NCBI GenBank assembly: GCA_016177845.1
Contig: JACOUO010000003.1
Span: 186,001-250,000, forward strand
DNA: 64,000 nt
DNA from: Deltaproteobacteria bacterium
GTDB taxonomy: Bacteria; Desulfobacterota; GWC2-55-46
Reading direction: 5' to 3'
The notes beneath the pieces are model-generated. The model saw only the letters and a program-made list of their open reading frames with translations, did no database searches and was not told the DNA's origin. This document shows, in pieces, positions 40,633 through 42,553 of this stretch; the first letter of the stretch is position 1, and every line of letters starts with the position of its first letter. A program made the translations under genes and the position numbers.

Positions 40633-40871
40633 TTAAAAGCAGGAGGGAAGGCCCAGTACTGCGGTAGTGCCATGGACAAAAACCTCTTCGCGACGGGCGC
40701 TGTCCTGATTGGGGTGGAGCATGGCATTTGAAGTAAATCTGAGGTTTCCTGCTTCCAGTTCATGCAGGACTACATCCGGTTCTGCCCCGCCTGCCCCGGC
40801 ATTTGCCATTGCCATACCGCTGAGACCTAATACTAAAGCAGAAGCGAGCATCATTGATTTGAAAGCCTCAT
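40633..40871 (-). pseudogene. Exported beta-carbonic anhydrase, truncated and frameshifted
   Basis: A 73-residue open frame begins with a signal peptide (LASALVLGLSGMAMANA) and continues with LEAGNLRFTSNAMLHPNQDSARREEV, which matches the N-terminus of periplasmic beta-carbonic anhydrases (L..GN.RF...HP....RR.E). It stops at AVLGLPSCF, where an intact enzyme would enter the zinc motif AVLGCSDSR. The zinc ligands and the rest of the enzyme are absent. At the 5' end, a good ribosome-binding site (GAGGAGATTCCCA) precedes an ATG at 40871 in another frame, which suggests a one-base frameshift. The gene looks dead, though its promoter-side signals and terminator remain. Confidence 0.65.
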
Positions 40872-41274: not shown

Positions 41275-41310
41275 GAAGATGCCTCAACGCTGATGCGTTG
41301 AGGCATCTTC
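41275..41310 (-). terminator. Terminator after the PEP-CTERM gene
   Basis: GAAGATGCCTCAACGC-TGAT-GCGTTGAGGCATCTTC, a perfect 16-bp stem. Confidence 0.85.
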
Positions 41311-41323
41311 GGAGACTGCAATA

Positions 41324-41554
41324 TTAACCGTTCTTTCTTAACTTTCTCGCAAAGCCTACTGCTGTAAGACCTGCGCCCAAAAGAAGCATTGTGGCAGGTT
41401 CAGGCGCCTGATGCTGGGGAGTGCCCTGTGTCTGCTGGTCCTGACTTTGATCCTGATTCTGGTCCGGGCTCTCATCCTGAGCTATGGCTGCTGTGCTTAA
41501 GGCGAGCATGGATGATAACGCTATAGTTGAGCATATCTTATAAATTGCTTTCAT
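41324..41554 (-). CDS. Small PEP-CTERM sorting-domain protein
   Basis: A 76-residue exported protein. A signal peptide (about 1-25) is followed by a ~25-residue low-complexity Gln/Asp stretch (DESPDQNQDQSQDQQTQ) and a PEP-CTERM tail: PEPATMLLLGAGLTAVGF and the basic end ARKLRKNG. Exosortase recognises this tail, cleaves it and links the protein to the surface or polysaccharide. CAGGAGGATATTCCA precedes the ATG. No exosortase gene is in the window, but a polysaccharide operon starts 3 kb away. It is transcribed from a sigma-54-type promoter through a structured leader. Confidence 0.9.
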   Translation of the reverse strand: MKAIYKICSTIALSSMLALSTAAIAQDESPDQNQDQSQDQQTQGTPQHQAPEPATMLLLGAGLTAVGFARKLRKNG

Positions 41555-41690
41555 TGGAATATCCTCCTGATTCTTGGGTTTAGTTTTTGTAACCTTTTGA
41601 CAGGTATTGGGAGTTGATGAGCCGTTTTCAGCCTGGCCAAGGCTACTCTGCCCTCATCTCCGCAATACTGAAAACTTCCCGCACGGTCAA
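41555..41690 (-). ncRNA. Structured 5' leader of the PEP-CTERM mRNA
   Basis: On the minus strand, nested complementary segments build a ~70-nt stem (41601-41670): GTATTG/CAATAC, GGA/TCC, GATGAG/CTCATC and the apical AGCCT/AGGCT. It lies between the predicted start of transcription and the ribosome-binding site. It does not match the c-di-GMP riboswitch consensus that I know. A ligand is not implied. Confidence 0.5.
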
Positions 41691-41700
41691 TCTCAGGTAA

Positions 41701-41716
41701 AGCAAGCCCTGTGCCA
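41701..41716 (-). promoter_or_regulatory. Sigma-54 (RpoN) promoter
   Basis: On the minus strand, TGGCAC-AGGGC-TTGCT matches the -24/-12 consensus TGGCAC-N5-TTGCW exactly, with correct spacing of GG and GC. PEP-CTERM genes in other bacteria are controlled by sigma-54 through PrsK/PrsR, which supports the call. Confidence 0.78.
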
Positions 41717-41956
41717 GCTGTGTTTTTGAGTGCATAATATGGGTTTTTGAGAGGAAAATGCCTGTACAATCAAATGGTTAGAACAATATGTAAACTTCCG
41801 TAGACTTATCAGGCACAAAGCATGACAGGATAAAGTGAGATTTTTCAAACAGATCGGGCATGGAGTTGGGGGGAGTAAAAATAATTTAACAGGTCTTCAT
41901 CAGTTTACCATGAGGGCGGCGTAAGCTGGCGTACAGTTATACTTTCAGTATGAAAT

Positions 41957-42553
41957 TCAGGTTTTTTTGCGGTTTTTGGAAGGTTGCGTATCCAAGTCCA
42001 CACTTTTTTTGAAAAACAATTCACTACAGTCCGGGCAGATGCCATGGGTCAGCTGAGGCAGTTTGATCTGCCCAAAAAGGTCAAGCCTGCTTACAGCCTC
42101 TTCGACCTCTGCCCATCCGTTCTCAGGCAGGATAATCCTTTTGCACCAGCTGCACATGGTAACGAATTCGTTTGAACGGTCAGCCATAGCATCAAGGATT
42201 GGGGCAGGGTCACGGAATTCCTCTTTAATTATTTTGGTATGGAAGGCGAGCGAGCCGCCATTGAGCGGGGTGATTTTCATTTCCATAAAGCGGCGGCACT
42301 CCGGAGAGTCGCATCTGAATGGCAGTTCTACACCAAGGCCTGTTGTCCTGATCTTTTCGAATAGTATTCTGAAGATGTGCTTTATTTCCCTTCCTGTGAT
42401 GAAGTCCCAGATGGGCCTGCCGATGACATAGGCATTGGTTATATAAGGGGCCTTGTTCTCCTGCGCGAATTGTACCCAATGCTCATTTACGCGCACTAAT
42501 CTGTCTTCAGCGTCTATCTCGTAAAGGAAAACCCGCTTGTCAACGGTCTTCAT
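41957..42553 (-). CDS. PAS-like sensor protein with C-terminal CxxC...CPxC motif
   Basis: A 198-residue protein. The N-terminal ~110 residues look like a PAS domain (FLYEIDAEDRLVRVNEHWVQFAQENKAP..., WDFITG). The C-terminus has MCSWCKRI (CxxC), then WAEVEEAVSRLDLF and HGICPDCSELFF (H, CxxC). This WCK..HGICP.C ending is common behind PAS or receiver domains in delta-proteobacteria and relatives and probably holds a metal or redox site. There is no kinase or output domain. GGAGGGATT precedes the ATG. Confidence 0.75.
   Translation of the reverse strand: MKTVDKRVFLYEIDAEDRLVRVNEHWVQFAQENKAPYITNAYVIGRPIWDFITGREIKHIFRILFEKIRTTGLGVELPFRCDSPECRRFMEMKITPLNGGSLAFHTKIIKEEFRDPAPILDAMADRSNEFVTMCSWCKRIILPENGWAEVEEAVSRLDLFGQIKLPQLTHGICPDCSELFFKKSVDLDTQPSKNRKKT

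Follow-up and report, generated by a model that had tools for sequence, protein, structure and literature searches.

A very probable sigma-54 promoter and a candidate leader RNA element upstream of a tiny PEP-CTERM gene

A 76-residue PEP-CTERM protein encoded in the window (the whole stretch of 64,000 nucleotides that was analysed) is very probably expressed from a real sigma-54 promoter, TGGCAC-N5-TTGC at 41716-41702, and the unusually long leader of its gene contains a core of 80–95 nt that is also found in the leader of a paralogue adjoining prsR/prsT on another contig, C18, of the same genome. The leader is the new part of this finding, while the promoter part is ordinary and already known. 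The gene, promoter motif, upstream box, Prs genes and common core are all recognizable in the sequence itself; that the core is a functional, lineage-specific RNA element has, in our estimate, an even chance of being correct.

A tiny PEP-CTERM gene under Prs-type control

The whole locus (box, promoter, leader, gene and terminator) lies on the minus strand:

41789..41805, minus strand: predicted PrsR-type enhancer box (Haft motif 1), GTCTACGGAAGTTTACA; motif and spacing according to PMC1569441
41702..41716, minus strand: very probable sigma-54 (-24/-12) promoter TGGCACAGGGCTTGC; exact TGGCACN5TTGC, recurring upstream of PEP-CTERM genes
41555..41690, minus strand: predicted leader; its start is placed about 12 nt after the GC of the -12 element
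41598..41677, minus strand: leader core, predicted stem-loop; common to the paralogue leader at C18:106332-106426
41563..41568, minus strand: Shine-Dalgarno AGGAGG, by sequence
41324..41554, minus strand: PEP-CTERM protein gene, 76 aa (ATG at 41554, ORF end 41324); signal-peptide-like start, D/Q-rich middle and APEPATMLLLGAGLTAVGFARKLRKNG sorting tail
41275..41310, minus strand: strong intrinsic terminator downstream of the ORF, 16-pair stem and T-rich tail

The 76-aa protein scores 28.8 bits against PF07589 (cut-off 20.7) and, at its C-terminus, is also above the cut-off of a second sorting-domain model (PF07589/TIGR02595; 23.7 bits versus 16). In a search of genome_contigs, it has two distant matches only, with little aligned beyond the sorting tail. 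Proteins of the PEP-CTERM/exosortase type play a part in the formation of flocs and the biofilm matrix. Two further minus-strand ORFs lie nearby. One, of 73 aa (40633-40854), is downstream of the gene and its terminator and has a signal-peptide-like start and no Pfam or NCBIfam family; the other, of 198 aa (41957-42553), is upstream of the gene, has a CxxC...CxxC tail and a weak PAS match below cut-off, and was assigned to no family.

The original prediction that the promoter motif fits the RpoN consensus exactly was borne out. The 3.0-Mb genome has 12 copies of TGGCACN5TTGC, compared with one of a reversed control pattern, and among the other exact matches several also stand just before ORFs and others lie within ORFs. 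Six ORFs in the genome pass the PF07589 cut-off, all six with a sigma-54 site upstream. The site is exact in four (the window gene, one gene each on contigs C23 and C24, and C18:581063), carries one mismatch in the fifth (TGGCATGCTATTTGC, C18:105899) and two in the sixth (AGGCATACTTCTTGC, contig C3). Because such sites recur upstream of the PEP-CTERM genes of this genome, a chance match in the window is very unlikely. No sigma-70-like site was found on the minus strand between 41230 and 41960, and a sigma-70 start for the gene was rejected on that ground.

The upstream box points in the same direction. Haft motif 1 is described as 17 nt long, ending in TTTACA and separated from motif 2 by 32–92 nt (PMC1569441); in the window, the gap from the end of the box to the -24 element is 72 nt, and TTTACA begins 78 nt before that element, as it also does in the C24 paralogue. 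Among PEP-CTERM genes of related genomes that have a sigma-54 site, the majority also show a box ending in TTTAC, frequently TGTC(N)7TTTACA, about 56–105 nt upstream. The genome also contains the regulators. A cluster at 101–116 kb of C18 comprises prsT (TIGR02917), a second TPR protein, a tiny PEP-CTERM gene, two prsR (TIGR02915), prsK (TIGR02916) and an exosortase (TIGR02602), and prsK, both prsR and prsT are all above their family cut-offs. Within C18:106676-112890, a nucleotide-sugar dehydrogenase lies between the two full PrsR-type regulators, and there is one PrsK. With prs genes and exosortase present, a recurring promoter type and a PrsR-type box upstream, we hold the predicted control of this gene by PrsK/PrsR and sigma-54 with high confidence. 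This layer, the system of Haft et al. 2006, is known (PMC1569441, PMC9850573), and RpoN dependence has been shown by others for one such gene, pepA of Aquincola, the start of which they mapped by primer extension (PMC9850573).

A long leader with a core common to two paralogues

The distance from promoter to ATG is 147 nt in the window gene, giving a predicted leader of about 136 nt. Across the three tiny paralogues (65–76 aa; 42–44% identity to the window protein), it is 147, 242 and approximately 337 nt; in the ordinary PEP-CTERM genes of the genome it is about 40–45 nt. Among 17 PEP-CTERM genes with a sigma-54 site from relatives in the same taxonomic family, the ATG, with start codons picked by script, lies a median of 45 nt and at most 143 nt from the -12 GC. 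The leaders of the three tiny paralogues are unusually long; the stem is missing from ordinary PEP-CTERM leaders, which are short both in this genome and in its relatives.

Alignment of the window and C18 leaders gave a local score of 44, compared with 21.6 ± 3.7 for shuffled sequences, none of which (0/1000) reached 44. The letters common to both copies read AAGTT..TTCAGTATTG...TAGCCTTGG..AGGCT..AAAC...CCRATAYCTG. The 190–240 nt upstream of the two promoters show no similarity to each other, and the core is therefore an island of similarity; conservation of its sequence between the two leaders is clear. The third leader, on C24, has weak traces of the core only (18/1000 and 21/1000), and a covariance model found no match in it. 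We considered and rejected a conserved peptide within the core, as frames and stops differ between the two copies, and a mobile repeat, as the genome contains just two good copies. Strong structure in the C18 leader (L035:8128-8460, minus strand; 326 nt) extends past the core (z -2.7; 0/100 shuffles), and the C18 and C24 leaders have TGATTAGCGCTG in common.

A nested stem had been predicted between the promoter and the ribosome-binding site, and its arms were found at 41670-41601 on the minus strand. The outer arms CAGTATTG (41670-41663) and CAATACCTG (41609-41601) can pair with each other, with GGAG/CTCC inside them, a GATGAG/CTCATC region in the interior and AGCCT/AGGCT as the apical hairpin. 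Folded alone, the stem reaches -28.1 kcal/mol (z -2.9 against dinucleotide shuffles; 1/200 as low). Over its full 138 nt, the leader shows no unusual stability (z -1.55; 17/200 shuffles as low). Of all 80-nt segments on the two strands of the window, about 1.9% reach a folding energy of -28 or lower, so that stability of the stem is weak evidence by itself. No T-run follows the stem in the window copy and the only nearby terminator-like site is past the gene; an attenuator at this leader was rejected for these reasons.

Conservation of the fold is suggestive in the two modelled sequences. When the cores were folded independently, 13 of 25 pairs were identical and 23 of 25 agreed within one column, a tolerance that was chosen after the folds had been seen. 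Permuting the letters that differ in the paralogue, with conserved letters fixed, reached 23/25 agreement in 4/2000 and 13/3000 trials; the test was weak without column tolerance (307/3000) and also in the reverse direction (246/3000). The energy of the core ranked 79/3000 against permutations in the window and 341/3000 in the paralogue. RNAalifold scored the pair mildly better than column shuffles (68/2000) but not better than permuted differing columns (1354/2000), and the conserved letters show no enrichment at paired positions. Taken over all structural tests of the core, p ranged from 0.004 to 0.7. One pair is altered on both sides between the two copies, and such a single compensatory pair is too little to prove the stem. 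In the alignment of the two leaders, covariation was limited to that pair.

Searches of other genomes returned the motif from this genome only. A covariance model (R1) recovered its two source leaders alone in 63 genomes of the class and, with stricter filters, in a 395-genome sample of the phylum. At a lax threshold in the family, where the relatives searched included no other genome of the genus, it recovered the same two leaders together with two weak matches (E 1 and 7) at loci lacking a sigma-54 site. A DNA search of these relatives, none from another genome of the genus, with the window leader and promoter returned only itself, and a low-threshold search with the C18 leader gave chance-length matches only. 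Rfam detected two tRNAs only in the whole window and chance-level matches only in the three paralogue leaders, assigning these to no known cis-regulatory RNA (riboswitch, thermometer or leader). Of the conserved leader RNA originally raised as a possibility, the core sequence, and probably its fold, is retained in the C18 leader; no match was seen in relatives. A new structured leader-RNA family has to occur in more than one genome, and among the genomes searched this motif occurred in one.

Possible roles of the leader core

We propose the following course of events, which as a whole we put just short of an even chance: a Prs/sigma-54-driven single-gene transcript whose leader core acts in cis near its 5' end. 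PrsR would bind near 41805-41789 and activate sigma-54 polymerase at 41716-41702; the RNA would start near 41690 and end at the terminator near 41275; and the 76-aa product would be exported, then cut and sorted by exosortase. After transcription has started, the core may act as a 5'-proximal stem-loop, either stabilising the short transcript or providing a binding site for a regulator. In the window and C18 genes, the core begins about 13 and 27 nt, respectively, downstream of the predicted start. Considered as a separate claim, a role specifically as 5'-end stabiliser or binding site is less likely than not.

The leader could instead be long and inert, in an otherwise ordinary Prs-regulated PEP-CTERM gene, with the core a decaying relic of paralogue duplication. 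We regard this as a real possibility, if well below even. The identity of the core (64% over 78 ungapped columns) is no higher than that of the coding DNA (likewise 64%), compensatory change is almost absent, and searches of other genomes did not recover the motif; these points favour a relic. However, surrounding neutral non-coding DNA has no detectable similarity, so that the core looks held back from divergence, and long leaders have been kept in all three tiny paralogues.

It is conceivable, but improbable, that the core functions at the DNA level, as an operator or architectural site shortly after the start, with a repressor occupying the dyad AGCCTTGG..CCAAGGCT. In the C18 paralogue AGCCTTGGCGCCAAGGCT forms a perfect 18-bp palindrome, and in both genes the dyad is near the promoter; the window dyad AGCCTTGGCCAGGCT, however, is shorter and imperfect, which better suits a hairpin loop than a rigid operator, while conservation reaches both arms of the outer stem and the genome contains no other good copy. 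A leader folding over the ribosome-binding site, in the manner of a thermometer or riboswitch, is very improbable: the ensemble predicted for the window leader does have the Shine-Dalgarno sequence partly paired, but that pairing differs among paralogues and does not come from the conserved core, the core lies about 30 nt from the Shine-Dalgarno sequence in one gene and about 190 nt in the other, and there is no Rfam match. Action of the core at the 5' end is favoured over such masking because of its position near the start, its variable distance from the Shine-Dalgarno sequence and the source of that pairing.

Relation to known systems

The locus resembles the PEP-CTERM/EpsH system of Haft et al. 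2006 (PMC1569441) in its single-gene unit, PEP-CTERM tail, TTTACA-ending box and sigma-54 site, and in a genome that contains prsK/prsR/prsT and exosortase. It differs in the distance from promoter to start, for which Haft et al. give a mean of 71 (SD 38.5, maximum 221), compared with 147 here and 242 and 337 in the paralogues, and in the stem-loop core common to the window and C18 leaders, which they do not describe. Similarly, pepA of Aquincola tertiaricarbonis is a small PEP-CTERM gene with a TGGCAC -24 motif and a terminator after the ORF, and adjoins prsT, as does the C18 paralogue; its upstream intergenic region is nearly 85 nt, however, and the excerpted text of that report mentions no structured leader (PMC9850573). 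In the two publications found to mention both PEP-CTERM and riboswitch, neither title nor opening of the abstract deals with such a leader.

The ompA leader is an example of a 5'-proximal stabilising stem-loop in bacterial mRNA. The window leader is like leaders of this type in having a predicted stem-loop near the 5' end of an mRNA for an exported protein; the candidate core differs in beginning some 13–27 nt from the predicted 5' end.

Described regulation of PEP-CTERM genes stops at PrsK/PrsR and sigma-54. We consider it possible, at somewhat less than even, that a new lineage-specific structured leader RNA adds post-transcriptional control to this small family of Prs/sigma-54-driven exosortase substrates. 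If so, the leader would be a second control step, and for the smallest prs-linked substrates the promoter and the mRNA would together determine the output of matrix protein. Even with an inert leader, the locus would serve as a clean illustration of a Prs regulon with tiny substrates.

Elsewhere in the genome, at C5:11420-11650, a leader of 172 nt separates an exact sigma-54 site from an ORF of 261 aa with a signal-peptide-like start; this leader contains a hairpin resembling a terminator, with a T-rich tail. That leader is possibly a sigma-54-driven attenuator or small RNA.
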